From Sulfurovum sp. (GTDB lineage: Bacteria > Campylobacterota > Campylobacteria > Campylobacterales > Sulfurovaceae): a stretch of DNA of 37,169 nt. A program made the position numbers and the translations under genes. Each line of letters begins with the position of its first letter. The first letter of the stretch is position 1. The stretch spans positions 1 to 37,169 of the forward strand of contig JAAXPZ010000008.1 of NCBI GenBank assembly GCA_012329065.1, given 5' to 3'. The notes under the pieces are model-generated. The model searched no databases and was not told the DNA's origin. It worked only from the letters and a program-made list of their open reading frames with translations. Positions 7,235 through 36,556 of the stretch are shown one piece after another.

Positions 7235-8389
7235 GTGAATAAAAACTATCAAACTATTATAATTGGAGCTGGAGCATCAGGACTGATGTTTGCTTCACTC
7301 TTGCAAGCTAAGAGCAATACGCTTATCATTGACAGCAATAAAAATATTGGTGCCAAAATAGCTATATCTGGTGGTGGAAAATGTAATCTAACCAACGAGA
7401 TTGTAAGTAGTGACAATTATCTTGGCATAGAGTGGTTTGTGCAGAGTGTTTTGAGTAGGTTTGACGAGCAGCAGGTGCTGGAGTGGTTTGCAGGCAGAGG
7501 TTTGGAATTGATTGTGCGAAAAGACGGTCAGTATTTTTGTGAAAACTCTGCCAATGATATTATAGATATATTTAAAAGAGAGGTCGTAGATACTGAGATA
7601 TTATTAGATACAAAAGTTATTGATGTGCATAAAGAAAATGGCTTGTTCGCGATCAAATCCAATAAAGGCATGCTATACTCAGAGAGTCTCGTGGTGGCAT
7701 CAGGCGGACTTAGTTTTCCTAGGCTGGGTGCTTCATCCATAGGACTTGATATTGCAAAGAGTTTTGGTCACACAACTACGGTAACAGCACCTGCTTTGGT
7801 CGGCTTCACGCTTCAATCAGAGCAATTATTCTTCAAGGAGTTGAGCGGTTCTTCTGTTTTTGTTAGCGTTTCGGTAGACGATAAGGTGCATAGTGGCGAT
7901 ATGCTTTTTGCACATAGGGGTATTAGTGGACCCGCTATTTTAAATGCATCACTCTATTGGGAAAAAGGGAATATAGAGATTGATTTTTTGCCTAACTTTT
8001 CACTAGATAGTATAAAGGGAAGCAAAAAACAGCTCTCTACATTGTTGCCACTTCCAAAAAAAGTTGCTAAAGCCTTTTTAGACTATCTCGGTGTTACTGA
8101 CAGAGCAGCAGAAAAAGTATCTACTGAGGAGCTGGGCAAACTAAAGGTTTTACAAAACTACAGTTTCGCTCCAGCAGGTACTTTTGGCTATTCAAAAGCA
8201 GAAGTTACTCGTGGCGGTGTAGTGGCAGATGAAGTTGACCCATACAACATGATGAGCCTTAAGGAGGCAAATCTATATTTTATCGGCGAAGTACTGGATG
8301 TTACAGGGGAGCTTGGAGGGTATAATTTTCAGTGGGCTTTCTCGTCAGCATTTGCTTGTGCAAATAGCTTTGGAGATGATGATGCTTAA
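7235..8389 (+). CDS. HI0933/BaiN-family flavoprotein
   Basis: FAD-dependent oxidoreductase of the HI0933 (BaiN/YhiN-like) family, 384 residues, probably cytosolic; the physiological substrate of this branch is not known. The N-terminal Rossmann fingerprint GAGASGLMFASLLQ binds the FAD adenosine, and ISGGGKCNLTN is the family-typical second motif. SEYSL-type strands around residue 150 end in VASGGLSFPRLGASSIG, and the C-terminal part has EVTRGGVVADEV and FIGEVLDVTGELGGYNFQWAFSSA, the closing FAD-contact motif. The start is GTG 7235, four bases after ruvA; the only in-frame alternative would shorten the Rossmann fold. The 3' end overlaps the start of the next gene. No sign of truncation. Confidence 0.9.
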   Translation: MNKNYQTIIIGAGASGLMFASLLQAKSNTLIIDSNKNIGAKIAISGGGKCNLTNEIVSSDNYLGIEWFVQSVLSRFDEQQVLEWFAGRGLELIVRKDGQYFCENSANDIIDIFKREVVDTEILLDTKVIDVHKENGLFAIKSNKGMLYSESLVVASGGLSFPRLGASSIGLDIAKSFGHTTTVTAPALVGFTLQSEQLFFKELSGSSVFVSVSVDDKVHSGDMLFAHRGISGPAILNASLYWEKGNIEIDFLPNFSLDSIKGSKKQLSTLLPLPKKVAKAFLDYLGVTDRAAEKVSTEELGKLKVLQNYSFAPAGTFGYSKAEVTRGGVVADEVDPYNMMSLKEANLYFIGEVLDVTGELGGYNFQWAFSSAFACANSFGDDDA

Positions 8390-9218
8390 GATAATCACTA
8401 TATCGTTCATGATACTAATCTTTCTACTGTTGGTCTATAATATATTTTCTCCTTTATTTAAAGACAGTAACGGCATGAAGCAGCAAGAAAACCGTAAAGT
8501 AGTTACAGAAAAAGAATATAAAGAGCAGAAACCTAGTATTGAAAAAAAAGATAAGCCAAGTAAAGACGGTTCGTGGATGAAGAACACTATTGACAATATA
8601 AGACAACAAGAACCAATTCAAGAAACTATGGCAGAAAGCATAGAGCGAATAGATGGCGAAGTTGGCGATTCGATTTTTATTCGTATATTTAAAAAGGAAG
8701 CAGAACTTGAGGTGTGGATGATGAGTGCTGAGAAGTACCATTTGATTCAAACCTATCCTATATGTGCCTATTCTGGAGATCTTGGACCCAAGCTAAAGGA
8801 GGGAGATAGGCAGAGTCCAGAAGGGTTTTATTATGTCACCAAAAGCAGACTTAACCCCAATAGTAAATTTCATCTCTCGTTTAATTTGGGATATCCCAAC
8901 AGATACGATAGAATTCATAAGAGAACAGGTAGTTTTTTGATGGTACATGGAGATTGTGTATCTATTGGCTGTTATGCGATGACGGATGATAAGATTGAGG
9001 AGATATATGAATTGGTTGAACAGGCACTATTGCGTGGGCAAAGGCATGTGAAAGTGCATGCTTTTCCATTTAGAATGGATGACAAAAAACTACAAGTTTT
9101 TTCTCGAAATAAATGGTATCAATTTTGGGTAAATCTTAAAGAAGGATATGATTTTTTTGAGGAAAATAAAATACCTCCAGATGTGGGAGTGGAAGCAAAA
9201 AAATATACCTTTTATTAA
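8382..9218 (+). CDS. Membrane-anchored L,D-transpeptidase-fold protein, YafK/DpaA-like
   Basis: A 278-residue envelope protein with an N-terminal membrane anchor (residues 1-20, LKIITISFMILIFLLLVYNI), a charged Lys/Glu-rich linker to about residue 85, and a YkuD catalytic domain. The active site reads MVHGDCVSIGCYAMTD: His plus the Cys nucleophile in SIGCYAM, the variant seen in YafK-type proteins rather than the SxGCIR of classical enzymes. In E. coli the YafK protein (DpaA) detaches Braun lipoprotein from peptidoglycan, so hydrolysis or remodelling is as likely as cross-linking. Three consecutive ATG codons lie at 8376, 8379 and 8382; TTGGAG at 8370-8375 best serves 8382. The start overlaps the preceding stop, so translation is probably coupled. 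Confidence 0.85.
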   Translation: MLKIITISFMILIFLLLVYNIFSPLFKDSNGMKQQENRKVVTEKEYKEQKPSIEKKDKPSKDGSWMKNTIDNIRQQEPIQETMAESIERIDGEVGDSIFIRIFKKEAELEVWMMSAEKYHLIQTYPICAYSGDLGPKLKEGDRQSPEGFYYVTKSRLNPNSKFHLSFNLGYPNRYDRIHKRTGSFLMVHGDCVSIGCYAMTDDKIEEIYELVEQALLRGQRHVKVHAFPFRMDDKKLQVFSRNKWYQFWVNLKEGYDFFEENKIPPDVGVEAKKYTFY

Positions 9219-9312
9219 CTTATTGTTAATTATTTATTAACTTTTTGGTTACTATTAAAGAAAATAAGATAAAATACAGCTTATTTTGTTGCATCAAAAG
9301 GAAAAACAGATT

Positions 9313-10572
9313 ATGAAATATAAGATTTTATGGGCGATAATAGCTACATTTTTTTTAGGCGGGTGTGTAGTTACAGATCCATATTTATCAAAATCAGGTT
9401 GGAAATATTCACAACAAAGTGAGCTTTTAGAAATACTAAAAACAGATAAATATGCTTCTTTGTGTGAACTGAGACCAATATATGAAAAATATCTTCAAAA
9501 TAAAAATCCCAAACTTTTCAATAAACTACTAGTGGGATATGTACAAAATCTGGCAAACAGTTGTATAAGCGTAAGTTCCTTCAAGGCATCTCAGCGAGCC
9601 AAAAAAGCAGGAAAAACAAAAACACATTATGAGATACAGATGCAGAGTGCAAAAGCAAGCAGTATTATGCTTCAGCTTCAGTCGGGTAAGTCTATAGAAG
9701 ATATTCTAAAGCCTTATATCCCAACTTCACCTCAATTTAATAGATTGCTATTATATTATCACAGCATGAGGTCAGGTGGCGATAGCAAGCAACTACAAAA
9801 AGTCAAGCTGAATATCGAACGAACAAAATTGATGAAGCCGAGCAGTTGGAGTACTTTTGTTTTAATCAATGTACCAGAGTATAAGTTTAGACTTTTCGAA
9901 ATGGGTGGCAAAAAGATGGAGTTTGCAGTTGTGGTTGGAAACAAGAAATGGCAAACACCGATATTCACATCAACGCTCAAATATGTTGTGCTCAATCCTA
10001 CATGGAATGTGCCAGATAATATTGCCAGAGATGAGCTCATCCCAAAGATTATACGCAATCCAAATATACTGAAGCGTAAAAACATGGTAGTTAGAAAAGA
10101 TTATAATATAAATTCTCCTCATGTTGATCCAAGGAGTGTCAATTGGAAGCTGTATTTGACTAAAGCATACAAAAAGAAAAATTTACCTCATAAGCTAATA
10201 CAGAAATCTTCTGGAAGAAATGCATTAGGAACAGTGAAGTTTATGTTCCCTAACCGTTTTGCTGTATATATGCATGATACACAAGCAAAGAGTTTATTTA
10301 AGAAAAAACATAGAGCTTATAGTCATGGGTGTATTCGACTATCTAAGCCTCAAAAGCTACTTAAACATGTATCTAATAACTATACTTCACATGGTTTTGA
10401 TACAATCAATAAGCGATCAAATACGAAGAAAACTAACTATATTAATTTAAAGCAGCACATCCCAGTGAAAATCGTCTACCTTACGGCATATGTTGATGAG
10501 GGAGGAACGCTTAAGTTTTTCAATGATGTATATGGATTTGATTCTAGCCAGAAGCTAAGAGGAACACCATAA
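9313..10572 (+). CDS. Lipoprotein L,D-transpeptidase, YcbB-like
   Basis: A 419-residue lipoprotein with a YkuD L,D-transpeptidase domain that should form or exchange 3-3 peptidoglycan cross-links in the periplasm. Residues 1-19 form a signal peptide ending in the lipobox LGGC. A helical N-terminal region (about 30-185) precedes the catalytic domain, which begins at STFVLINVPEYKFRLFE. Catalytic motifs are VYMHDTQAKSLF (His) and RAYSHGCIRLS (Cys nucleophile and Arg), the spacing and wording of the YcbB/LdtD group, but the protein is about 200 residues shorter than E. coli YcbB. ATG 9313 has AAAAGGA ten bases upstream. It follows the preceding transpeptidase-fold gene after 94 bp and is followed by a hydrolase gene after 3 bp. 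Confidence 0.92.
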   Translation: MKYKILWAIIATFFLGGCVVTDPYLSKSGWKYSQQSELLEILKTDKYASLCELRPIYEKYLQNKNPKLFNKLLVGYVQNLANSCISVSSFKASQRAKKAGKTKTHYEIQMQSAKASSIMLQLQSGKSIEDILKPYIPTSPQFNRLLLYYHSMRSGGDSKQLQKVKLNIERTKLMKPSSWSTFVLINVPEYKFRLFEMGGKKMEFAVVVGNKKWQTPIFTSTLKYVVLNPTWNVPDNIARDELIPKIIRNPNILKRKNMVVRKDYNINSPHVDPRSVNWKLYLTKAYKKKNLPHKLIQKSSGRNALGTVKFMFPNRFAVYMHDTQAKSLFKKKHRAYSHGCIRLSKPQKLLKHVSNNYTSHGFDTINKRSNTKKTNYINLKQHIPVKIVYLTAYVDEGGTLKFFNDVYGFDSSQKLRGTP

Positions 10573-20602: not shown

Positions 20603-21820
20603 ATGAATAGAACTATTGTTGTTTTTCTACTTTTTTCTTCATTGCTTTCAGGGGGTGGCTATTTTTCTACTCAAGATGATATTTGTAAAGAAGCGACTGA
20701 TCACTATTGTGCAAATGATTCAGAAGCTATAAAAAACTTACAATTGTCTCTAGCATCGGATAGAAACCTTAAGCGAGTCATCAGTATGGACGGCATATTG
20801 GGAGATAATACTCATGAGGCTGTCATTGTTTTTCAGAAACATTATGGGATTGAGCCAGCAGATGGGTGGGTAGGCAAAAAAACAAGGCAAAAGCTGGATG
20901 AGGTTTATGACCTCAAGCCATTTTCTTTTTCTAGAGCTGGTGATATATGTGAAGAAGCAGAAGGACAGGAATGTCCAAATGAGTTCGAGGAAGTTCGTAA
21001 CTTCCAGATAGTTATGAATTTTGATAAAAATATGAGCGTTGATCTGGACATGGATGGCAATTGGGGCAAAAACACTATGGCAGCAGCAGTAAAAATGCAG
21101 AAAATTTATGGAATGATACAGGTTGATGGCTGGATTGGAAAGGGCTCCAAGCGACTACTAGACAAGCTCTCAGCAGGACTATTATTTCCTAAAGTACCCA
21201 AGATGTTTAGGCAAGTTAGAACTGGTAAGATAGCGACACTGAGTGGCAACATAGGAGCCAGCAAGAGAGTAAGAGCTGGTAGCTACGCGGCTTTTAAGCG
21301 TAGCAAAGGATATCCCAAAAGCTTTGCTGTGTACCGTAATGATAAGCTACTCAAAAAAGCAAGCACAATCAAGACGAAAATTGTGATCAATAAGAAAACT
21401 CAGCGTATAAAACTCTTCGTGGGTAGTGAAGTGGCTATTGACTCCCCATGCACCACTGGAGCTATTAGAAAACTAGAGCCCAATACTCGAAAAGTATATA
21501 ACAAAAGTACCCCAAGTGGAAACTTTAAAATAACAGAAAAGATTGTTGATAAACGATCTACGATATTTGGTAAACTTTATCGTAATGGTAAAATGGTTTG
21601 GAGAGGAGATAGGCGTAAATACAAAGGGCCTTCAGCCAAATATATAGGTGCATCACTCAAAAACTGGATGAGACTAACCAGTTCAGGTATAGGTATCCAC
21701 GGCAGTAAATATGTAAAACGATACCCAGCTACAAATGGATGCATTCGTGTGCCCTACAATGTGGTCACAAAGATTTTTAAATATGCCAAAAAAGGTACGC
21801 CAGTTAAGATTGTGAATTGA
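20603..21820 (+). CDS. L,D-transpeptidase with two peptidoglycan-binding domains
   Basis: A 405-residue secreted wall enzyme. Residues 1-19 form a signal peptide. Two PG_binding_1-type repeats follow: about 25-100 (LQLSLASDRNLKRVISMDG..LGDNTHEAV..FQKHYGI..ADGWVGKKT) and 105-190 (same pattern with MDGNWGKNTMAAAVKMQKIYGM and DGWIGKGS). Each carries a Cys pair near its start (ICKEATDHYC and ICEEAEGQEC) that may form disulfides. The YkuD domain covers about 245-405; the active site is GIGIHGSKYVKRYPATNGCIRVP, with His, Cys nucleophile and Arg. Expected role is 3-3 cross-linking or peptide exchange in the periplasm. It stands alone, convergent with thiQ after 3 bp. Confidence 0.92.
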   Translation: MNRTIVVFLLFSSLLSGGGYFSTQDDICKEATDHYCANDSEAIKNLQLSLASDRNLKRVISMDGILGDNTHEAVIVFQKHYGIEPADGWVGKKTRQKLDEVYDLKPFSFSRAGDICEEAEGQECPNEFEEVRNFQIVMNFDKNMSVDLDMDGNWGKNTMAAAVKMQKIYGMIQVDGWIGKGSKRLLDKLSAGLLFPKVPKMFRQVRTGKIATLSGNIGASKRVRAGSYAAFKRSKGYPKSFAVYRNDKLLKKASTIKTKIVINKKTQRIKLFVGSEVAIDSPCTTGAIRKLEPNTRKVYNKSTPSGNFKITEKIVDKRSTIFGKLYRNGKMVWRGDRRKYKGPSAKYIGASLKNWMRLTSSGIGIHGSKYVKRYPATNGCIRVPYNVVTKIFKYAKKGTPVKIVN

Positions 21821-21823
21821 TAT

Positions 21824-22492
21824 TTAATCTTCTTTGGAGAATGATTTATCAAGTTTTAGAATACCATCTTTCATGCTATATACTTGGTCAGCAAGTAGGT
21901 TACAATCCTCTATTTCATGAGTGATCATAATGGTGTGTAGGTTATTGTCTTCGGTTATCTTTTTGACTAGATCAAGCATTTGTAGCCTAGTCTCTCTATC
22001 TAGTCCAGTAAAAGGCTCGTCAAGTAAGAGTATAGGCTTGTTGCGAAGCAGTGCACGAGCTAGTGCTACTCTCTGCTGTTGTCCGCCTGATAGTTCTGTG
22101 GCAAGCTTTTGTTCATGTTTTGAAAGGTTCATTTGGGATAGTATCTCTTTGACCCTACCTAGCTGCTCTTTATTAGCTTTCCCTTTTGGGTTTATGCCTA
22201 GTAGTATATTTTTATGCACAGAAAGATGCTCAAAAAGATTATGCTGTTGAAAAAGTATAGTGACTGGTCTCTTTTCTATAGGTAGCTCGAGTAATTCTTC
22301 ATCATCAAGCTTAACAGATCCACTATCTGCATCTAGGAACCCTGCGATCAGATCAAGCATGGTTGACTTACCGCTACCACTTTCACCCAGTACTCCGATA
22401 ATTTTGCCAGAAGACATCTGTAGGGCAAAATGATAAGTGTATATTGTGGCGACAGTTTTATAGCTGTATGTCAGATTTTCTATATTGAGCAT
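21824..22492 (-). CDS. thiQ: Thiamine ABC importer ATPase ThiQ
   Basis: ATPase of the thiamine/TPP importer, 222 residues, the short ThiQ form without a C-terminal regulatory domain. Walker A GESGSGKST, signature LSGGQQQRVALARA, Walker B ILLLDEP and switch His in ITHEIED are all present. ATG 22492 is preceded by AGGGAGA; the frame extends to 22507 but that adds no family sequence. It overlaps the 3' end of the permease gene by 35 bp, so the two are translationally linked. Confidence 0.9.
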   Translation of the reverse strand: MLNIENLTYSYKTVATIYTYHFALQMSSGKIIGVLGESGSGKSTMLDLIAGFLDADSGSVKLDDEELLELPIEKRPVTILFQQHNLFEHLSVHKNILLGINPKGKANKEQLGRVKEILSQMNLSKHEQKLATELSGGQQQRVALARALLRNKPILLLDEPFTGLDRETRLQMLDLVKKITEDNNLHTIMITHEIEDCNLLADQVYSMKDGILKLDKSFSKED

Positions 22493-24113
22493 TCTCTCCC
22501 TTTGCAAATATTCTTGGTATTATAACAAAGAGACCCAAAACCAAGACTAGAAGTATTAGTGCAACTCCTGCTGCATCACTATTACGGTATGATCCCATAA
22601 GCTGATATAAGTACCAAGGAAGTGTAGTGATCTCATCACTCCCAAAGAGAGCAATCACTCCTAGGTCTCCAAGTGACAATGCAAAAGATAGAGCAAAAAT
22701 ATAGCTTATGGATGAGCGGAGATATGGTATCTCGCAATATCTCCATCGTACCAATGTGCTAAGCCCAAGAGAGAGGGTCAGCTTATCATACCTATAAGCA
22801 GTTTTCTGCATAGCAGGATAGATAATCGAGAGGGCAAAAGGTAGACTCATCAAAACATTGGCAGTGAGTACCGCTATCATCGCCCAAATAATCATAGGTG
22901 CTTCAAACCTCTGTGATATAAGAAAGAATCCAAAACCAAGTATGAGTGAGGGGATAGCTAGATATAAGTTCCCTGAAAAAGCTATCATTAATTCCAGTGT
23001 CTTGCTAAACTTAGAGTCCGAGATCTTAAATGGCAGGATGAAATTGCGTCTTGCATCGCTGAGAAGTAGGGCAAATAGTACAGTCAGACAGGCAGAGACT
23101 GTGGCAATAGCCAAGCTGATACTAAGCGATCTTATAAAGAGTGGATTTGTGACAATTCTTATAAAGTCTGCTTGTATACCGTCTGCAACTATGGCAATAA
23201 GTGGTAATATAAAAATAATTGTCGATAGAGCTATAATGGCTCTTTGGAGCAAGCCTCTATTTTTTGGTTCTCTCCATGTTATGAGGCTATTGGAGGTTTT
23301 TAGATTTCCTGATCCTACTCTGAAACTAGATGATAGGAGAACGAGCATTATAGATATGCTAAGCTGAATAAGAGCAAGTTTGAGAGCAAAAGGAATATCA
23401 AAATCTATCTTAATAGCCTCATAGATGGCAACTTCTAGTGTGTTGTTCGACGGTGATCCTCCAAGAAGCAATACTATGGCAAAAGAGGTAAAGCAGAGCA
23501 GAAATATAGTAGCAGCCATACTTACTATCGTTACTCTGATAGCCACCCACTCCACAAGCCAAAATCTCTGCCATGCGGAGAAGTTTAGACTCTTGGCAAG
23601 TCTATATTTCTCTTTGGGTATAGATTCAAAGCTATGCAGTAAGCCTCTTGATGCAAATGATGCATTGAGATAGACATGAGCTATCAAAATACCTGCAAGA
23701 CCATAGAGCCAACCTCCAAATGAATAGTCGAAGAGGTATAGAGATAGTCTGTTTAGCCAACCGTTGTTGCCAAGAATAGTAATCATTCCAAAAGCCACTA
23801 TGAGTGTAGGCAGTACAAGAGAAGATGAAAAGAGTGCAATAAGTAGGCTTCGTCCCTTGAAATTTGCTTGATGTGTGAGACTCCATGCCAATACTGTCCC
23901 AGCAGATACAGATAGTACAGTGGATATGCTAGCTTGATATAGTGTAAACTTCACAAGTCCCATGATTCTATCGTCTATGATAGAGATTGGAGCGGCGTCC
24001 GAAAAATTGTAAAGTAAACTGAATAATAGAACTGCAAAAGAGAGTAGGGCTATAGATATGGTGAGCCCTGGGATAACAGAGGCTCTAAATCTCCATATCT
24101 CTTTGTGTAGCAT
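22458..24113 (-). CDS. thiP: Thiamine ABC importer permease ThiP
   Basis: Two-domain inner-membrane permease of the thiamine importer, 551 residues, with about twelve hydrophobic segments. Two EAA-type coupling loops are visible, one in each half, around KYRLAKSLNFSAWQRFWLVEW and RYDKLTLSLGLSTLVRWRYCEIP, as in ThiP and FbpB-type fused permeases. The start could be GTG 24140 (overlapping thiB) or ATG 24113 (two bases after the thiB stop); I prefer 24113, which puts MLHKEIWRFRASVIPGL just before the first helix. Substrate assignment rests on the TPP riboswitch and the ThiB partner, since the sequence alone would also allow an iron importer. Confidence 0.88.
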   Translation of the reverse strand: MLHKEIWRFRASVIPGLTISIALLSFAVLLFSLLYNFSDAAPISIIDDRIMGLVKFTLYQASISTVLSVSAGTVLAWSLTHQANFKGRSLLIALFSSSLVLPTLIVAFGMITILGNNGWLNRLSLYLFDYSFGGWLYGLAGILIAHVYLNASFASRGLLHSFESIPKEKYRLAKSLNFSAWQRFWLVEWVAIRVTIVSMAATIFLLCFTSFAIVLLLGGSPSNNTLEVAIYEAIKIDFDIPFALKLALIQLSISIMLVLLSSSFRVGSGNLKTSNSLITWREPKNRGLLQRAIIALSTIIFILPLIAIVADGIQADFIRIVTNPLFIRSLSISLAIATVSACLTVLFALLLSDARRNFILPFKISDSKFSKTLELMIAFSGNLYLAIPSLILGFGFFLISQRFEAPMIIWAMIAVLTANVLMSLPFALSIIYPAMQKTAYRYDKLTLSLGLSTLVRWRYCEIPYLRSSISYIFALSFALSLGDLGVIALFGSDEITTLPWYLYQLMGSYRNSDAAGVALILLVLVLGLFVIIPRIFAKGENAQYRKSDIQL

Positions 24114-24115
24114 AC

Positions 24116-25111
24116 TTATTTTGCGACTGCTTGAATCCACTCATCAACATATAATTTCTTATTTTCTTTTACTTTTTGACTATCCATTAGTATCATTTTT
24201 GAAGGAACCTTGAGAGTAGAGAAGCCATTTGGGAGACCTTTTTTGGTTTTGACTACTGGATATGTCCAATTTGTAGTAGGGATAATATCTTGAAAGGTAT
24301 CAGATAGCATAAATTGTAGGAATTTTTGTGCCAGTTCTTTGTTTTTAGAGCTCTTGAGCATAGCTGCCACCTCTATCTGCCCATAGTGTCCTTCCTTGAA
24401 GTCTGCTGATAGATAATTAGTCTTCTCTTCGGCTATGATATGGTAAGCTGGCGATGTTGTGTAGCTCAGTACCATGTCTGCCTCACCTTTGAGAAACAGT
24501 CCATATGCTTCTGACCAACCTTTGGTAATAGTGAGGATATGTGGTGATAGTCGTTTCCAATACTCTGCTGCCTTGTCTCCATATACTGATTTAACCCACA
24601 ATAGAAGCCCAAGGCCTGGTGTGGAAGACCTGGGATCTTGTATGACTATTTTGAAACCCTTTGGCATAGATACTAGCTCTTCAAAGGAAGTAGGTACTTT
24701 TTTTAGCTTATCCATATCATATACAAATGCAAAATAGCTATAATCAAAAGGCACAAATGTATCATCATTCCAGTCTTTTGGAAGCACTACCTTACTAGTA
24801 TCTGTCGAGTGCTTCTCAAAAAGCTTTGTCGCTTTGGCAGTAAGAGCGATACTTGTATCTAGCCCCAGCAAGACATCTGCTTTGGTTCTGCTGCCTTCCA
24901 TCTGTATTTTTCGTAGGGTTCCTATGGCAGATGAAGAGGCTACAAAATTTAGAGTACAGTTGCACTCCTTTTCAAAAGCTTCTTTGATCTTTGGAGCTGG
25001 ACCCCAAGAAGCGGCAAAAGAATCATATGTGTAGACAGTGAGTGTTGGCTTCTCGGTAGCATATAATGCACCTGCCATGATAAGTGTGAGTAGTAGAAAA
25101 TTCTTTTTCAT
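24116..25111 (-). CDS. thiB: Thiamine ABC importer binding protein ThiB
   Basis: Periplasmic thiamine/TPP-binding protein, 331 residues, family length. Residues 1-18 form a signal peptide (MKKNFLLLTLIMAGALYA). The mature protein starts TEKPTLTVYTYDSFAASWGP, the typical ThiB opening, followed by DVLLGLDTSIALTAK, VPFDYSYFAFVYD, IQDPRSSTPGLGLLLWV and VLSYTTSPAYH, which form the ligand cleft. GTAAGGA at 25118-25124 (minus strand) is the ribosome binding site and takes part in the riboswitch fold. First gene of the thiBPQ operon. Confidence 0.93.
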   Translation of the reverse strand: MKKNFLLLTLIMAGALYATEKPTLTVYTYDSFAASWGPAPKIKEAFEKECNCTLNFVASSSAIGTLRKIQMEGSRTKADVLLGLDTSIALTAKATKLFEKHSTDTSKVVLPKDWNDDTFVPFDYSYFAFVYDMDKLKKVPTSFEELVSMPKGFKIVIQDPRSSTPGLGLLLWVKSVYGDKAAEYWKRLSPHILTITKGWSEAYGLFLKGEADMVLSYTTSPAYHIIAEEKTNYLSADFKEGHYGQIEVAAMLKSSKNKELAQKFLQFMLSDTFQDIIPTTNWTYPVVKTKKGLPNGFSTLKVPSKMILMDSQKVKENKKLYVDEWIQAVAK

Positions 25112-25270
25112 AGTTTATCCTTACTTTGTTATTATGGTAAGGAGAGATTGTTTGTGCAATAAAATTTGATTGCAACGAAGCTTCTCTTCCTTACGCCAGA
25201 ATTACCTGGTTCAAGTTCAGCGGGTAGGCTTTGTCTTCTCAGCTATTTTGGGTTAATAGCACCCCGAGAG
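25112..25270 (-). promoter_or_regulatory. TPP riboswitch and SD-hiding expression platform
   Basis: The aptamer lies at about 25184-25270 on the minus strand. It has the THI-box landmarks in order: CGGGGTGC, GCTGAGAA, a pyrimidine-rich ACCCGCTGAAC part, TTGAACCAGGTAATTCTGGCGTAAGG. The 3' arm of its closing helix contains GTAAGGA (25188-25194). The platform contains TCCTTAC (25137-25143), and the thiB ribosome binding site is again GTAAGGA (25118-25124). TCCTTAC can pair with either copy but not both. With TPP bound the aptamer helix should keep its own arm, leaving TCCTTAC to cover the ribosome binding site and stop thiamine uptake. Confidence 0.93.
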
Positions 25271-25322
25271 TGTTGAACTGATAATATAACAGATTTGGAT
25301 AAAAATAGTCTTAATATGAAAC

Positions 25323-26201
25323 TCATTTAATCTTCCGTATAAACAATCCACCCAATATCAAGACAAGTGCTACCCATACATTTATTTCTGGTATTGAATT
25401 GAAGAATAGCCATGACCAAAATATGGTAAACATAGGAATGAGATATGATACCTGAGACATGAACTGTACCCCAGTTCTCTGAACTAGATTAATCCGCATG
25501 AGTGAGGCTAGGGCGGTGGGTACTATAGCTAAGTATATGATGGTCAAGAACGGATAAGAGAGTAGCGAGATACTGCTTGGAGGCACAAGTAATATAAAAG
25601 GAAACATCATTAGTGACGCTGTGAGAAACATAGAGCAGGAGCAGACGAGGGTATTGATGTGATGTAATTTCCTTATCAAAAAGCCAGATGTTATGTAACC
25701 CATGACAGCTATGAGCATGGCAACTTTGCCATAAAGACCATATATATCGCCAGAAAAGAAATCATCCCCAAAGAGGATAAATATGCCAATAAAACCCATA
25801 GAAACGCCGATAAGTTTAAATATATTTATTTTCTCGTCATGCGTGACAAAATGAGATGTAATCAGTGCAATAAACGGCCCAACTGCTAACAATACAGCAG
25901 CAGTGCTTGCTGAGACATACTGTTGACCCCATGAGATGAGATAGAAGGGCATAGCATTGTTGAGCAGTCCTAGCACGATAAGCATGACCCAGCTTTTTTT
26001 ATCTCTAGGGAAGGAGAACTTTCTGAATAGGATAAACAGTAACAATAAAAGTGCAGCTATTGATATCCTATAAAAAGCCACTTGGAATGGATGGAATCCA
26101 GTCAAGGCATACTCTATACCCACAAAAGCACTGCCCCATATGGCTGATAGCAACATAAGCCAAAAATAGTCTATGTGTCTAGCATTTTGAATTGTTTTCA
26201 A
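25323..26201 (-). CDS. EamA/DMT-family permease in the glp operon
   Basis: A 292-residue inner-membrane permease with ten hydrophobic segments and two EamA repeats, each opening with the family pattern (MLLSAIWGSAFVGIEYAL and the repeat near residue 150, VAMLIAVMGYITSGFLI). Drug/metabolite transporters of this type move small metabolites, often as exporters; the substrate cannot be read from sequence. The start is TTG 26201, which overlaps the stop of the upstream flavoprotein gene as TTGA, so it belongs to the glycerol-3-phosphate operon and may move a related metabolite. A second, only distantly similar EamA gene lies at 32279-33193. Confidence 0.88.
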   Translation of the reverse strand: MKTIQNARHIDYFWLMLLSAIWGSAFVGIEYALTGFHPFQVAFYRISIAALLLLLFILFRKFSFPRDKKSWVMLIVLGLLNNAMPFYLISWGQQYVSASTAAVLLAVGPFIALITSHFVTHDEKINIFKLIGVSMGFIGIFILFGDDFFSGDIYGLYGKVAMLIAVMGYITSGFLIRKLHHINTLVCSCSMFLTASLMMFPFILLVPPSSISLLSYPFLTIIYLAIVPTALASLMRINLVQRTGVQFMSQVSYLIPMFTIFWSWLFFNSIPEINVWVALVLILGGLFIRKIK

Positions 26202-27445
26202 CTTTTCTGCTCTTCTTTGTATGTCACTTCCAGCCTATCGGATTTTTTGATAGGAATATTGAACCAGTCAACTGTTATACTTAGATATGGTACTGCACTT
26301 ATCTCTTGTCTCATCACCTCTTTATCGTTTAGCAGAATATTGAGTACACCTTTTGTATGTTTTGGGAATCTTATCTTGCACAGGTATTTCTGCTTTTTGT
26401 TACACTCTATGAGAGTAGGATAACACCACCCTATAGCTCCACCTATCTCTATCTTGACTGTGATAGGAATATCATTTTTTTGTAGCGATTTATGTATTGC
26501 TATTCCAGCTTTTTTGCCCTCGAAATAGCAGTTGAATGCCGTTAGTGCACCTCTGATCACATTACCTGCTAGAAAATACCGTTTATCTTTTGTTTGGAAG
26601 TTGTGTGTTATATCTGTAGAGCGGTTAAGTAGGTTGAAGTCATGTAAATGCTTCTGTAGCAAAGAACTCTCAGGAACAAAGCCACCAGAAAAAATCACAG
26701 CGTCACATTCTATGGTTTGCTCTGTATTGTTCTTGGAAATAGTAATACTTTTTACTTCTTTGTCTTCAGTGTTTATGCTTAGAAGCTTTGTGGATGTGTG
26801 AACTGGCGTTTTTAGTAGATATTTGGATGCATAGCTAAGTATACTAAAACTTTTGATTTTATCTTCTTCTTCGATGATTCCTGTGACCTCTATGCCTGCC
26901 TCTCTTGCCGTCATAATAGCAGAGAATGATACTATCTCACTTCCTATGATTACTGCTTTATTGAAAGGCTTACGATGGTGAATGTGCACAAATCTTTGCA
27001 GGGCTCCTGTGGTTATAATATTTGGACTTCTGCCGCCACTTATTGCCATAGAAGACCGTGTAGTTTCTCTGGCTCCCATAGCAAATAGAATTCTTTTTGC
27101 TATGTATTTGATCTCTCCATCTATGGTACTAAATGTTAGAATATCACCATTAATATGAGTTAGCGAATGTTTGAGTTTGATTGCCACGGAATGCTCTTTG
27201 GCTTTTCTCTCAAGAGTCATGGCATAATCCAAACCAGTCATAGGTCTATAGAATTCCATCAGTCCAAACCCCTGATGATCGCAGTGTCTGGATGTCATGG
27301 CTACTTGGTTTTCCCTGTCAAAGACCAGCATATTTTTGTCATGTCCAAGCTTGGATAGTTCTATGGCAGCAGCTATTCCTGCAGGCCCAGCTCCAATGAT
27401 AGCAATATCTATCTCAATAGGCTCTCCTATATCATTTTGGTACAT
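26198..27445 (-). CDS. GlpB-like NAD(P)/FAD-dependent oxidoreductase
   Basis: A 415-residue pyridine-nucleotide-disulfide-type flavoprotein without the redox Cys pair. The Rossmann motif is IIGAGPAGIAAAIELSK, then MGARETTRSSMAISGGRSPNII, the NAD(P)-side IIGSEIVSFSAIMTAREAG, and VIFSGGFVPESSLL before the last FAD contact FLAGNVIRGALTAFNCYFEGKKAG. About 85 C-terminal residues form an extra beta-rich domain. Proteins of this kind pair with a BFD-carrying GlpA-like dehydrogenase, as here, and are thought to pass electrons onward. In Firmicutes a small DUF1667 protein usually completes the set; none is present. The start overlaps the upstream stop by 19 bp. Confidence 0.85.
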   Translation of the reverse strand: MYQNDIGEPIEIDIAIIGAGPAGIAAAIELSKLGHDKNMLVFDRENQVAMTSRHCDHQGFGLMEFYRPMTGLDYAMTLERKAKEHSVAIKLKHSLTHINGDILTFSTIDGEIKYIAKRILFAMGARETTRSSMAISGGRSPNIITTGALQRFVHIHHRKPFNKAVIIGSEIVSFSAIMTAREAGIEVTGIIEEEDKIKSFSILSYASKYLLKTPVHTSTKLLSINTEDKEVKSITISKNNTEQTIECDAVIFSGGFVPESSLLQKHLHDFNLLNRSTDITHNFQTKDKRYFLAGNVIRGALTAFNCYFEGKKAGIAIHKSLQKNDIPITVKIEIGGAIGWCYPTLIECNKKQKYLCKIRFPKHTKGVLNILLNDKEVMRQEISAVPYLSITVDWFNIPIKKSDRLEVTYKEEQKS

Positions 27446-28887
27446 GATTTCTTTACCTCACTTTCACATATACTTGCTACGCTTGCCATGCAGTTGAATC
27501 CTTGACACCTACCCATCATAGCTCTGGTACGCCTTTTGAGTCCGCTCATTGTTCCTGCTGGAGTATCTCCTACGCATGCCTCTCTGATTTCCCTATCTGT
27601 TACCATCTCACAATGACACACGATTCGCCCATATCCAGCTACCTGATGATCTCTACTGCTAAATTGTGAAATATTTGGAATGGATATTTTTTTACTTGCT
27701 TTAGGTGAGTTATATTTTGTATCATTTAGCTCATAAACATGTTTTGCCAATCCAAGAGCAGAAGTGAGTCCAGTTGATCGTATGCCACCAACAGTAATCC
27801 AATTTTTCTCATCATTAAATTTGACTCTATAATATGTCTCATCTGAAGCAGGTCTGAGTCCAGCAAATATCGCCGTGACCTCATGTTCTTCAAGTGCTGG
27901 TAGCATAGTGTATGCTTTCTGTTTGAGATCTTCCAGTGTTTCTTTTGTGGTTATGCTATCTATTCTGTTATCTTGGTCTTCAGCTGTAGGTCCTACCAGA
28001 AGATTACCAAAAGCAGTTTTAGTGATGACAACACCTTTGGTTCTCTTAGTTGGCACAGGTAGTATGATAGAATTGATTAGGTCATATGCTGTCTCATCAA
28101 AGATAAGAAATTGTCCTTTTCTTGGAATGATTTTAAAGTCGATATTTCCACTTATCTTTTCAACTATATCTCCATATAGACCAGCTGCATTGATTACAAC
28201 TTTTGCCCTAATAGGATTTTGTTTTGTATCCAGCTCCCAATATGCACCATTGTGCTTTCCATTTGTAACCTCATGACTAAAAGCTGTTTTTCCTCCACAG
28301 GATATGCCTTTTTTGACATAAGCAAGTGGGGCACTCCAAGCATCGATGACCGCCTCACCATGTACTATGATAGCACCTTGTGCATTTTTTGATAGATTTG
28401 GCTCCATAGAGAGCACCTTTGATGAGGCTATCTGCTCTAGCTCCTGAACGCCATTTCCAAGTCCTTTTTTCAATATGCCATCTAGCTTCTCTAGCTGTTC
28501 TTCATTCCATGCGACTACCATTGCCTTGGTGTGCAATATCTGTAGATTCAGCTCATCTTTGAGCTTCAAGAACTCATCATAACCTTTTTGAACACATGCA
28601 AGCTCTAAGCTCTCTGCTGGAGCATCAAAGCCTGTGTGGAGTAAGGCACTGTTGCCTTTACTAGCACCTTCTAATATATCATTTTCTTTTTCGATCAACA
28701 CGGCTTTGGCACCCTGCTCACAAAACTCTTTAAATATAGCACAGCCCACTACACCTGCACCGATAATAGCGATGTCAAATATTTCATTTTTCTGAAACTT
28801 TTTGTGTCGAATTGGAAAAATTGTATTTAAGTTGATAGTATTCATGTTTGGCCTAGCTCTGATTTGGTATGGTTTTTTTTTCGACAT
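27427..28887 (-). CDS. GlpA-like glycerol-3-phosphate dehydrogenase with BFD [2Fe-2S] domain
   Basis: A 486-residue FAD protein of the DAO family. An N-terminal extension of about 37 residues precedes the Rossmann motif IAIIGAGVVGCAIFKEF. The segment SKGNSALLHTGFDAP matches the FAD-covering loop of GlpA/GlpO-type enzymes, with GLRPASDETYYRV and GGIRSTGLTSALGLAKHVYE near the end of the catalytic domain. The last 60 residues are a BFD-type [2Fe-2S] domain with Cys-x-Cys in IVCHCEMV and Cys-x4-Cys in GRCQGFNC. Likely role: oxidation of sn-glycerol-3-phosphate, or of a related 2-hydroxy compound, with the following flavoprotein as partner. AAGGAG before ATG 28887 lies within the end of glpD. Confidence 0.87.
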   Translation of the reverse strand: MSKKKPYQIRARPNMNTINLNTIFPIRHKKFQKNEIFDIAIIGAGVVGCAIFKEFCEQGAKAVLIEKENDILEGASKGNSALLHTGFDAPAESLELACVQKGYDEFLKLKDELNLQILHTKAMVVAWNEEQLEKLDGILKKGLGNGVQELEQIASSKVLSMEPNLSKNAQGAIIVHGEAVIDAWSAPLAYVKKGISCGGKTAFSHEVTNGKHNGAYWELDTKQNPIRAKVVINAAGLYGDIVEKISGNIDFKIIPRKGQFLIFDETAYDLINSIILPVPTKRTKGVVITKTAFGNLLVGPTAEDQDNRIDSITTKETLEDLKQKAYTMLPALEEHEVTAIFAGLRPASDETYYRVKFNDEKNWITVGGIRSTGLTSALGLAKHVYELNDTKYNSPKASKKISIPNISQFSSRDHQVAGYGRIVCHCEMVTDREIREACVGDTPAGTMSGLKRRTRAMMGRCQGFNCMASVASICESEVKKSCTKMI

Positions 28888-28890
28888 AAT

Positions 28891-30453
28891 TTATACTCCT
28901 TCTGTAAGCAAAGTTTTAGCTTCCAACTCTAATGTATCCCTTGTGTCTTTATCCCACCTGAGTACATCTTGCATAATATCGCAAACGCGAGGCAATATCT
29001 CTAGTGACATCGCTCTGTTTTTGAGCCCAAGATTGATCCGTCTTACGATAAAGTCTAGTGGTTTTTTGACATATTCATATCGGATACAGTAGAGTAGCTC
29101 TGCTATCATTGTTTCATTTTTGGGATGTAATTTAGCTGAAGCATTTTCACTATTGGCGATCTCTATGACCTTATAAGATTGGTCTCCGTATAGATTTTTT
29201 AGATGTTTTTCTATGTTTGTAGCCGTGATATCTTTCTGGCTCCCTACAACTCTGTATTGATTTGTTTTGCATGGGTGGCTCTGCGTGGTCTTTCCTAATT
29301 TCTGTAGTACAAGGTCTATAGTAGATTCTGACATGGATCTATAGCTAGTCCACTTGCCACCAGCCACGGTCATAAGTCCAGAGTTTGAGAATACTGCTAT
29401 ATGTTCTCTAGCTATTGTTGCTGTGCTTTTTGCTTCATTTTGCTTCAGTAGAGGACGAATACCAGCAAAGGTAGCAAGAATATCATATTTATAAATATGA
29501 ATATTAAGATATTCATTAATATTTTTTAATAGGTAAGAAATTTCTTCTTCTTCTGCTCTAGGATGTTCACTTATGTTACACACTATATCGTTAGTTCCTA
29601 TTAGACAGTTGCCTTGATAGGGGAGCACAAACAGAACCCTGCCATCACTTGTTTTGGGTATCATAATGCCTTTAGGTGACGGCAAGAATTTTTTATCTAC
29701 AATGATATGTATGCCACTACTTGTTTGTATTATTTGCTTACATTCAGCCTCATCTAATTTTCTAACTTCATCTATAAAAGGCCCAGTAGCATTTATGACT
29801 ATCGATGCTTCTATAGAGAAGGTTTTAGAACTTAGCTTATCCCATATAGAGACAGCAACTATCTTACCACTTTTTTTCTGGAAGGATATGAGCTTATGAT
29901 GATTGTGGGCACCCGCTCCATTTTCTTGGGCACTTTGAAGTAATGCTATTGTCATCCTGCTATCATTGAATGTTCCATCATAATAGCTGACTGCTGCTTT
30001 AAGCCCTTTGGGGCTAATCGCTGGGTTGAGCGCAAGAGTTTTTTTGGCAGATAATATTTTACTTTTGCCTAGAGTAGCGTTGCCTGAGATTATGTCATAC
30101 AGGAAAAGTCCAGCATAAATATAGGGAACTTCCCACCATCGATATAAGGGAGTGATTAGCTCGATAGTATTAGCTAAATGAGGAGCATTTTGCAAGAAAA
30201 GTTTTCTTTCTCTGAGTCCTTCTTTGACTAGACTATATTGAGCCCTATCACATCTTTTAACTGCCGCTTCAAGATACCTTACTCCTCCATGGATAAGTTT
30301 GGTGCTTCTGCTACTGGTTCCTTCTGCAAAATCATTTTGTTCAAACAGTATCACAGAAAGCCCTCGCAATGAGGCATCTAGAGCAATACCTGCACCAGTA
30401 GCTCCTCCTCCTATTATGACAATATCATACTGCTTGTCTATTGTATTATCCAT
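28891..30453 (-). CDS. glpD: Aerobic-type glycerol-3-phosphate dehydrogenase GlpD
   Basis: Membrane-associated FAD enzyme that oxidises sn-glycerol-3-phosphate to dihydroxyacetone phosphate and reduces quinone. At 520 residues it has the normal length. Seen are the Rossmann motif VIIGGGATGAGIALDASLRG, the strongly conserved GTSSRSTKLIHGGVRYLE, the ERKLFLQNAPHL segment, INATGPFIDEVR and VAGGKWTSYRSMSE, then the C-terminal helical domain. First gene of a four-gene operon (glpD, GlpA-like, GlpB-like, EamA). An 8-bp inverted repeat (TATCCATC at 30447-30454 and GATGGATA at 30474-30481) spans the start codon and could be an operator or translation-control hairpin. No glycerol kinase or facilitator gene is nearby. 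Confidence 0.95.
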   Translation of the reverse strand: MDNTIDKQYDIVIIGGGATGAGIALDASLRGLSVILFEQNDFAEGTSSRSTKLIHGGVRYLEAAVKRCDRAQYSLVKEGLRERKLFLQNAPHLANTIELITPLYRWWEVPYIYAGLFLYDIISGNATLGKSKILSAKKTLALNPAISPKGLKAAVSYYDGTFNDSRMTIALLQSAQENGAGAHNHHKLISFQKKSGKIVAVSIWDKLSSKTFSIEASIVINATGPFIDEVRKLDEAECKQIIQTSSGIHIIVDKKFLPSPKGIMIPKTSDGRVLFVLPYQGNCLIGTNDIVCNISEHPRAEEEEISYLLKNINEYLNIHIYKYDILATFAGIRPLLKQNEAKSTATIAREHIAVFSNSGLMTVAGGKWTSYRSMSESTIDLVLQKLGKTTQSHPCKTNQYRVVGSQKDITATNIEKHLKNLYGDQSYKVIEIANSENASAKLHPKNETMIAELLYCIRYEYVKKPLDFIVRRINLGLKNRAMSLEILPRVCDIMQDVLRWDKDTRDTLELEAKTLLTEGV

Positions 30454-33193: not shown

Positions 33194-33267
33194 TATATCA
33201 AAAATCCTTTGTTGCACATTTACTGCACAGTGGATTGGCTATACTTGCAAAAATCAAAGGAGAAACA

Positions 33268-33663
33268 GTGAAGAAGTTATTTTTATTTTTCGTTATTGTG
33301 CTATCAGCATCGTTTGCTCAAGCTGCTGCAGGATGGCTTGGTGACTATAGTGCCACTCTAGCAAAAGCACAAAAAATTCACAAACCAATTGTCATGATGT
33401 ATTCAGCAGAGCATTGACCAACTTGTAATAAAATGAAGCAGGATGTTTTCACACAAAAAAAAGTTGCAAGTTTTCTCTCCAGGAATTTTGTGTCAGTGGA
33501 GCTGGATGTAGACAAAGATGAGCTAGTAGAAGGCTTCAGTGTCGTCGCTGTACCTACATTCTATGTATTAACCGAAAAAGGAAAGATGATAGATGCGGTA
33601 GTGGGCGGTGCAAATGCTAAACAATTTGTAGATTATCTAAAAAGCGTATTGCCCAAAAAGTGA
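33268..33663 (+). CDS. Periplasmic thioredoxin-fold selenoprotein (Sec-Pro-Thr-Cys)
   Basis: The frame from GTG 33268 (AAAGGAG upstream) to TAG-free end at 33663 is interrupted only by TGA at 33415-33417. Reading that TGA as selenocysteine gives a 131-residue protein: signal peptide MKKLFLFFVIVLSASFAQA, then KPIVMMYSAEH-Sec-PTCNKMKQDVF, a strand SVELDVDKDEL, and the cis-Pro loop VAVPTFYVLTEKGK. Sec50 falls exactly on the first Cys of the thioredoxin CxxC active site, and Cys53 is the partner. Both halves keep the fold without frameshift. Its role would be thiol-disulfide or peroxide chemistry in the periplasm. The alternative is a nonsense-mutated pseudogene, which the exact active-site position makes unlikely. 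Without selenocysteine insertion the product would stop after 49 residues. Confidence 0.85.
33415..33455 (+). promoter_or_regulatory. Sec codon and candidate SECIS hairpin
   Basis: Bacterial selenocysteine insertion needs a hairpin shortly after the UGA. Here UGAA (33434-33437) can pair with UUCA (33448-33451) around the loop GCAGGAUGUU, with UGU/ACA pairing possible below it. The loop begins 20 bases after the UGA and shares GCAGG with the E. coli fdhF SECIS loop as I recall it. The stem is weak and AU-rich, so the structure is tentative. Confidence 0.45.
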
Positions 33664-34528: not shown

Positions 34529-34867
34529 ATGAATATTGAAAATGCAAGACCATTGACTGTAGATAATGCTACGGTAGAGTTTATAGAAGGTACAGTAGAT
34601 GGCGTAACTACATATAAATTTGACACCACAAAAGAGGGTCATCCTATGGTTAATGCTATGGCAGGATTAGCTATACTTGGAGATGATGAACAGTTGCTGA
34701 TGGTAAATCATTGTGCACCTATGGGGCTATATCCAAAGATAGAGAATGAATTTAATCACTCACACCAAGAGATGCCAGATGGCACAACACATATACTTTT
34801 TACCAAAAAAGAGGGCACTCAAAGTACAACAGACTTTTCAGCTACTAGTTGTGGCGGCGGGTGCTAA
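34529..34867 (+). CDS. Unknown protein ending in Cys-Gly-Gly-Gly-Cys
   Basis: A 112-residue soluble protein I do not recognise. It has no signal peptide and no membrane segment. Notable are FIEGTVDGVTTYKFDTTKEGHPMVNAMAGLAIL, a NHCAPMGLYPKI segment with a lone Cys-Ala-Pro, and the extreme C-terminus SATSCGGGC, a flexible Cys pair suited to metal binding, disulfide exchange or transfer of a sulfur or selenium species. AAAAGG lies upstream of ATG 34529. It is a single gene with its own upstream region, about 0.9 kb from the selenoprotein gene. Confidence 0.75.
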   Translation: MNIENARPLTVDNATVEFIEGTVDGVTTYKFDTTKEGHPMVNAMAGLAILGDDEQLLMVNHCAPMGLYPKIENEFNHSHQEMPDGTTHILFTKKEGTQSTTDFSATSCGGGC

Positions 34868-35620: not shown

Positions 35621-36556
35621 AGGTCAGAAATCTAGAGGTCAGGTAACAATTACAACTCATCTTCTACTCCTCTTTACCACAGCAGAAATAGCCTGCTGTG
35701 ATATACCCAATACTTTAGCAATCATCTGCTGAGAGTAACCTTCTTTATAAGCTTTGACTATCTGTTCATTTCTCTTTTTCAACTCTTTTATTTTTGAGAA
35801 CTGTTTTTTTAGTTTAGGTTCATCTGGTTTCTTATCACTATTTGGAGCTTCTACTAGACTGGCTGCTTTTCTCATCTCTTCTAGTTGGGAGCTATCCACG
35901 CTAGTATTTAAAAATGCTTTTATAGCGTCTGTATCATCTTTATAGTTTTGGACTATCCATGACTGTTTTAGACACTCAGGGACATTGTCACTATCTAAGA
36001 AGTTCTTGTATGAGCTGTATGGGTACTCTTCTAGTTGTTTTACCATGTTTGCTTTGAGTGGGTTTTGTTCTATGTAGAGCATGAGTGTATAAAGATACGC
36101 TTCATCTGTGACATACCATGATTTAAATCTTCCTTGCCATAGGTGTCCTACTCTTTTGTTTTTTTTGTTAAAGTAGATGGCGTAACTCATGTTAAGTTGT
36201 CTCATAAACTTTGAAAGGTTTTCTGTTTGTATTTCTATAAGCAGATGATAGTGATTTCTCATAAGACAATAATTGTGTATTGTGATACCGTAGCTTTTGG
36301 CATGAAAGCACATCAGTTCCTCAAAGTATTCATAATCATCTTTTTCTTTAAAGACGACTATTTGCTCTACACCTCTGTTGATAATATGATAATAGCCTGC
36401 TATTTCAATACGTGGTTTTCTTGGCATTCATACTCCTTCTTGGAGAGTATAGCAGAAAAAGATTAGATTGTGATTGTTACCTGACCCCTAGACTTTGACC
36501 CCTAGACTTGCTAGACTTTGACCCCTAGACTTTGACCCCTAGACTTCCTAGACTCT
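35613..36556. mobile_element. RAYT (REP-associated transposase) unit with flanking repeat arrays
   Basis: The transposase gene lies between inverted ends: TCTAGAGGTCAGGTAACAAT at 35631-35650 and its complement at 36473-36492, 19 of 20 identical. Outside each end the repeat is iterated. On the left are two perfect 15-bp copies (35613-35642). On the right are four copies of TGACCCCTAGACTT (36482, 36496, 36519 and 36533) plus two partial ones (36511 and 36548). This matches the view that RAYTs act on REP-like repeats that surround their own gene. Confidence 0.8.
35657..36427 (-). CDS. REP-associated tyrosine transposase (RAYT, IS200-like)
   Basis: Single-strand Y1 transposase of the REP-associated group, 256 residues. 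It starts MPRKPRIEIAGYYHIINRG, the usual RAYT opening. The HUH metal motif is HYHLL (in RNHYHLLIEIQ), and the catalytic Tyr is probably in EAYLYTLMLYIEQNPLKA. The C-terminal 55 residues are an extra part: a charged linker (KKPDEPKLKKQFSKIKELKKR) and a helix-turn-helix (EGYSQQMIAKVLGISQQAISAVVKRS) that may add DNA recognition. The start ATG 36427 is preceded by AAGGAG on the minus strand. The gene is intact and probably active. Confidence 0.92.
   Translation of the reverse strand: MPRKPRIEIAGYYHIINRGVEQIVVFKEKDDYEYFEELMCFHAKSYGITIHNYCLMRNHYHLLIEIQTENLSKFMRQLNMSYAIYFNKKNKRVGHLWQGRFKSWYVTDEAYLYTLMLYIEQNPLKANMVKQLEEYPYSSYKNFLDSDNVPECLKQSWIVQNYKDDTDAIKAFLNTSVDSSQLEEMRKAASLVEAPNSDKKPDEPKLKKQFSKIKELKKRNEQIVKAYKEGYSQQMIAKVLGISQQAISAVVKRSRR

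Follow-up and report, generated by a model that had tools for sequence, protein, structure and literature searches.

A thioredoxin gene with an in-frame UGA

The window, by which we mean the whole 37,169-nucleotide stretch of DNA analysed here, carries on its forward strand a thioredoxin-like gene whose frame is interrupted once, at codon 50, by a TGA. The features identified in and around this gene are the following.

33256 to 33262, + strand: Shine-Dalgarno sequence AAAGGAG, 5 nt 5' of the GTG, recognised in the sequence
33268 to 33663, + strand: complete gene for the putative selenocysteine (Sec) thioredoxin, with a GTG start, 131 codons and a TGA stop; codon 50 is UGA
33268 to 33324, + strand: predicted signal peptide, residues ~1-19, read by eye, with KK, a hydrophobic core and an AQA/A cleavage motif (cut between AQA and A)
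33415 to 33417, + strand: in-frame UGA, the predicted Sec50, where CxxC proteins have their first active-site Cys; the aligned codon is UGA in 15 genes and Cys in 13 CPEC homologs
33424 to 33426, + strand: predicted resolving Cys53 of U-P-T-C, invariant in the ortholog alignment
33553 to 33555, + strand: cis-Pro96 of the thioredoxin fold (VAVPTF)

Translation of 33268-33663 yields VKKLFLFFVIVLSASFAQAAAGWLGDYSATLAKAQKIHKPIVMMYSAEH-TGA-PTCNKMKQDVF...VAVPTFYV...LPKK, followed by the terminal TGA. The TGA at 33415-33417 is the only internal stop in the 131-codon frame and lies in phase. This direct reading bears out the initial annotation, which had joined two frames across a single TGA, had placed that TGA at the first Cys of the CxxC motif (giving Sec-Pro-Thr-Cys), where the CPEC homologs have their Cys, and had described the cis-Pro loop as intact; the VAVPTF proline indeed forms an invariant alignment column. 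The two pieces into which gene finders were expected to divide the gene are also as described, with 49 codons 5' of the TGA and a 76-aa ORF opening at the first ATG 3' of it. In the ortholog of the nearest relative (L022), the same AAAGGAGAAACA is found 5' of the start codon, which there is ATG.

Conservation of the UGA among related genomes

TGA occupies codon 50 in 15 genomes from three genera and two families of a single order: the host and 10 others in its family, and four in a second family. The active sites of these genes read UPVC in nine cases, UPEC in four and UPTC in two, and within the host family the orthologs that keep the TGA are 43-58% identical to the window protein. A further 13 close homologs have Cys (CPEC) at the UGA site. 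An alignment of homologs at this residue had been proposed at the outset, and the close relatives aligned here carry either Sec or Cys at the position and no other residue.

The ratio pN/pS was below 1 both 5' and 3' of the TGA, with values of 0.1-0.6 on the 3' side. The excess of synonymous over non-synonymous change on both sides indicates that the 3' part is translated in frame with the 5' part. Judging from these ratios and from the orthologs with TGA at the same codon, the arrangement of the gene is not a product of chance.

In a phylogenetic tree the CPEC group falls among the UGA forms, with a midpoint root and moderate branch support. Its position suggests a replacement of Sec by Cys. 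Several other matches were discarded as Sec forms. Five of them (L033, L034, L037, L043 and L046), flagged as containing one TGA, end with this codon and have CPEC or another CxxC as their active site; in a paralog from the host's own genome (C60), flagged as having a TAG inside, an in-frame reading puts the TAG just 3' of the stretch that matched and shows a CPWC active site, so that this gene is not recoded.

Selenocysteine machinery in the host and its relatives

The host genome (1.94 Mb) was found to encode a tRNA-Sec with anticodon TCA, selA adjoining selB, and a selD gene with an in-frame UGA of its own, in VRAAGU. All of the components that the initial annotation had proposed to search for (selA, selB, selD and tRNA-Sec) are thus present. 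Two genes for formate dehydrogenase alpha subunits (fdhA) also have an in-frame UGA, at ARIUH and ARLUH respectively. Since UGA stands at the classical places of selD and of both fdhA genes, the host genome very probably uses Sec.

The relatives were scored for selA alone among the Sec-machinery genes, and selA by itself can persist without Sec decoding, as in H. pylori (PMC4607533). It was present in 11 of 11 TGA-bearing genomes of the host family vs 23 of 164 others (Fisher 3e-9, a value that overstates certainty because the related genes are not independent), and in all four TGA genomes of the second family.

A conserved hairpin 3' of the UGA

Downstream of the UGA, comparison of the orthologous sequences revealed an RNA element inside the coding sequence, composed of a lower helix and an apical hairpin, the loop of which lies about 24 nt 3' of the UGA.

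33420 to 33429, + strand: lower SECIS-like helix, 5' arm, pairing with 33463-33472
33435 to 33449, + strand: apical hairpin GAAGCA-GGA-UGUUUU of 6 bp, with a loop (33441-33443) that begins with GG; from comparative folding and covariation
33463 to 33472, + strand: lower SECIS-like helix, 3' arm, pairing with 33420-33429

The element does not emerge from the window sequence folded by itself. The segment 33415-33455, in which the initial annotation had suggested looking for a SECIS, folded no better than its shuffles (z +0.4), and folds of the single sequence near the TGA were in general not significant (z about 0 to +0.5). The alignment of 11 UGA sequences, by contrast, folded with -13.4 kcal/mol, as compared to -3.2 +/- 2.1 kcal/mol for column shuffles (1 of 500 as good) and -2.7 +/- 1.7 kcal/mol for codon shuffles (0 of 500 as good). 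No structure signal was obtained from the alignment of the Cys homologs, where the corresponding value was -1.4 and 155 of 300 shuffles were as good.

In 14 aligned sequences the apical hairpin had 100% of its cells paired, one pair varying on both sides (A-U/G-C), and the lower helix had 88-91% of its cells paired, three to four pairs having changes on both sides. For the whole structure, two-sided changes were seen in four pairs, and in five after the second family was added. The four sequences of that family, which lay outside the definition of the structure, keep six of the six hairpin pairs; the lower helix is weaker in them (f9), at 8 of 10 pairs. Hairpin and GG-initial loop together were found in 15 of 15 UGA genes vs 0 of 13 Cys genes, so that structure and codon correspond completely.

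The window gene therefore has the hairpin just 3' of the UGA, with a G in its apical loop, by which bacterial selenoprotein genes are recognised, and on comparative grounds the element appears to behave as expected of a bacterial SECIS. It is of the same kind as the published epsilonproteobacterial SECIS, a hairpin that has 5/6 bp, follows the UGA by a few nt and carries an invariant G in its loop (PMC4607533). Hairpins also lie by the UGA codons of the host selD and two fdhA genes (L051, L054 and L055), with the loop G about 5 nt nearer to the UGA; the correspondingly greater distance in the thioredoxin gene is a point against the assignment.

Explanations for the internal TGA

Three explanations other than Sec insertion were considered. 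The gene might be broken, as a pseudogene or through a sequencing or assembly error, the TGA representing a mutated TGC or TGT; it is indeed one base away from a Cys codon, and an ordinary gene finder would divide the frame in two. An error in sequencing, which the initial annotation had named as a possible objection, is ruled out by the TGA at the same codon in 14 further genomes. The 15 TGA codons come from independent assemblies, with 43-58% protein identity within the host family, and together with pN/pS values of 0.1-0.6 3' of the TGA they leave a broken gene exceedingly improbable. One may also regard the TGA as a genuine stop between two short proteins, the second starting at the ATG 3' of it, where the 76-aa ORF does open. 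However, neither half makes a complete thioredoxin, the PxCN between TGA and ATG is conserved as protein, the TGA aligns exactly with the Cys of intact homologs, and the codon is TGA in 15 of 15 members of the TGA set and TAA or TAG in none; we consider a genuine stop very improbable. Finally, the TGA could be read as another amino acid, either Trp following a code change, as TGA-to-Trp reassignment exists in other bacteria, or Cys by suppression. The same gene, however, terminates with TGA, its homologs have Cys at the site and never Trp, and the Sec machinery is present, with selA in all of the TGA genomes, so that the probability of such a reading is negligible.

Because both the UGA and its RNA signal are kept in 15 related genes, and a complete Sec machinery is encoded in the genome, the in-frame stop of the window gene is, by these comparisons, almost certainly read as selenocysteine.

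Fold and export of the predicted protein

For searches of domain models, Cys was set at codon 50. The best Pfam match was PF13098 (Thioredoxin_2), with 3.8e-13 and 50.1 bits vs a gathering cut-off of 27; PF13899 (Thioredoxin_7) and PF00085 (Thioredoxin) also exceeded their Pfam cut-offs, the protein scoring better to PF13098 and PF13899 than to PF00085. No NCBIfam model was above its cut-off. The classical thioredoxin model TIGR01068 reached 26.4 bits vs a cut-off of 96.8, and the NCBIfam models for the DsbD, DsbH, TsoB and Trx7-PDZ selenoproteins were all far under theirs, with sub-threshold matches of 35 vs 330 bits for DsbD and 27 vs 190 bits for DsbH.

An AlphaFold model of the window protein has the thioredoxin fold, with a pLDDT of 84.6 and low confidence across the predicted signal peptide. 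A hydrophobic N-terminus that starts with K/R is common to all aligned orthologs, which is consistent with export. The solved structures nearest to the model were a Bacteroides exported cytochrome c biogenesis-related domain, DsbH (TM 0.69), a Thermus thioredoxin and the C-terminal domain of DsbD (DsbD-gamma, TM 0.64-0.69). The window protein differs from DsbD-gamma and DsbH in being small and stand-alone and in having the predicted Sec for the first Cys. Frame, conserved UGA, Sec machinery, conserved RNA structure and fold were thus each observed by computation.

Proposed function

Taken together, these results make it highly likely that the gene encodes a selenoprotein of thioredoxin fold with predicted export, in which UGA50 specifies Sec by means of the SECIS-like hairpin within the coding sequence, and which probably acts as a periplasmic reductase. 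As regards export, direction of reaction, electron donor and substrate, we infer the following scheme. SelB and tRNA-Sec would decode UGA50, directed by the hairpin, a step for which the sequences give strong support, and the mature periplasmic protein would probably be a fast thiol/selenol-disulfide reductase with a Sec50/Cys53 pair (U-P-T-C). By analogy with the thioredoxin family, from which the catalytic scheme follows, Sec50 would act as the nucleophile, attacking a substrate disulfide or an oxidised thiol, and Cys53 would resolve the intermediate. The resulting selenenylsulfide would most likely be re-reduced by the membrane protein DsbD, of which the host genome encodes a full-length form.

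An additional scenario is that Sec is inserted as proposed and that the protein is an oxidase/isomerase or a peroxidase-type enzyme, not a reductase. The initial annotation had put forward a possible role in sulfur or peroxide chemistry. Sec is suited to peroxide chemistry, and putative disulfide isomerases are among the PDB sequence neighbours; nevertheless, the nearest fold neighbours of known direction (DsbD-gamma and DsbH) are reductases, and the single domain leaves no room for a dimerisation domain. We regard this scenario as unlikely, if clearly less so than those in which Sec is not inserted, and retain the periplasmic reductase as the preferred reading.

Relation to known selenoproteins

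The initial annotation had described the protein as an unusual redox enzyme. This was overstated, since most characterised selenoproteins are thioredoxin-like and UxxC families are many (PMC13188914). One predicted family of thiol:disulfide interchange selenoproteins, with representative WP_011366075.1, combines PF13098 with UxxC (PMC13188914 Table 1, PMC1794560 Table 1); the window protein has the same Pfam domain and motif, and may or may not be an ortholog. The members of that family in the 2006 survey come from Deltaproteobacteria, Syntrophus and Geobacter (PMC1794560), whereas the window gene is from Campylobacterota. A selenothioredoxin has also been catalogued (PF00085, UxxC, WP_010956703.1). 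It shares the thioredoxin fold and UxxC with the window protein, which differs in its predicted export and in its better scores to PF13098 and PF13899. A 2015 survey of Epsilonproteobacteria listed one Sec 'thioredoxin' (PMC4607533), which may belong to the same family as the window protein. In the open-licence literature we found no description of the gene in Nitratifractor or Sulfurovum.

Similar in length and N-terminus are the CPEC homologs of Sulfurovum and related genera, with 34-38% identity and, in most, the active site MMMYSA-xCPEC; they differ from the window protein in having Cys for Sec and in the absence of the SECIS hairpin. These pairs of UGA and Cys homologs, with the hairpin present or absent accordingly, offer a clean natural case of Sec/Cys exchange in a predicted periplasmic thioredoxin. 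The catalogues, then, already include Sec thioredoxins as well as UxxC selenoproteins with PF13098, to which the window gene adds a well-supported and usually split member. Its recognition mends a gene model that routine annotation can be expected to break in two, in at least 15 genomes, and an exported thioredoxin would join formate dehydrogenase and SelD in the predicted selenoproteome of the group.

More tentatively, the UP[TVE]C proteins may form an exported Sec-thioredoxin subfamily specific to Campylobacterota and apart from the deltaproteobacterial UxxC proteins, with Cys forms nested inside the Sec forms by Sec-to-Cys replacement in Sulfurovum and relatives, the Sec protein providing chemolithotrophs with a dedicated reductant in the periplasm. 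We consider this combination possible, and somewhat doubtful as a whole.

Gene neighbourhood and other features of the window

Comparison of gene contexts identified no partner gene of the Sec-thioredoxin conserved between genera, and the genome context names no substrate for it. In the genus with UPVC active sites the neighbours include HAD-type phosphatase-like and FAD oxidoreductase-like genes, among others, with no evident link. In the window's own genus, one genome has a DsbA-like ORF directly 3' of the Sec-thioredoxin, and in both genomes that have the gene a DUF2249-like protein, ending in CGGGC or CSGGCG, is encoded near it. In the nearest relative the latter lies at L021 289-627, L021 and L022 being the same locus; in the window it is found at the following position.

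34529 to 34867, + strand: DUF2249-like protein of 112 aa with a C-terminal CGGGC, below the Pfam cut-off, its homolog lying by the Sec-thioredoxin of the nearest relative

An Rfam search of the window returned only a TPP riboswitch, away from the gene (25171-25276, - strand) and upstream of a likely thiamine-type ABC transporter operon (24116-25111, 22458-24140 and 21824-22507, all on the - strand). Three FAD oxidoreductase genes at 26198-30453 (- strand), which are GlpD-like, DAO with Fer2_BFD, and pyridine nucleotide-disulfide oxidoreductase-like, form a cluster resembling a glycerol-3-phosphate oxidation operon. Near the contig end an IS200-like (Y1) transposase with a C-terminal helix-turn-helix is encoded at 35657-36427 (- strand), and three separate L,D-transpeptidase (YkuD) genes occur within the 37-kb window, at 8298-10572 and 20603-21820.
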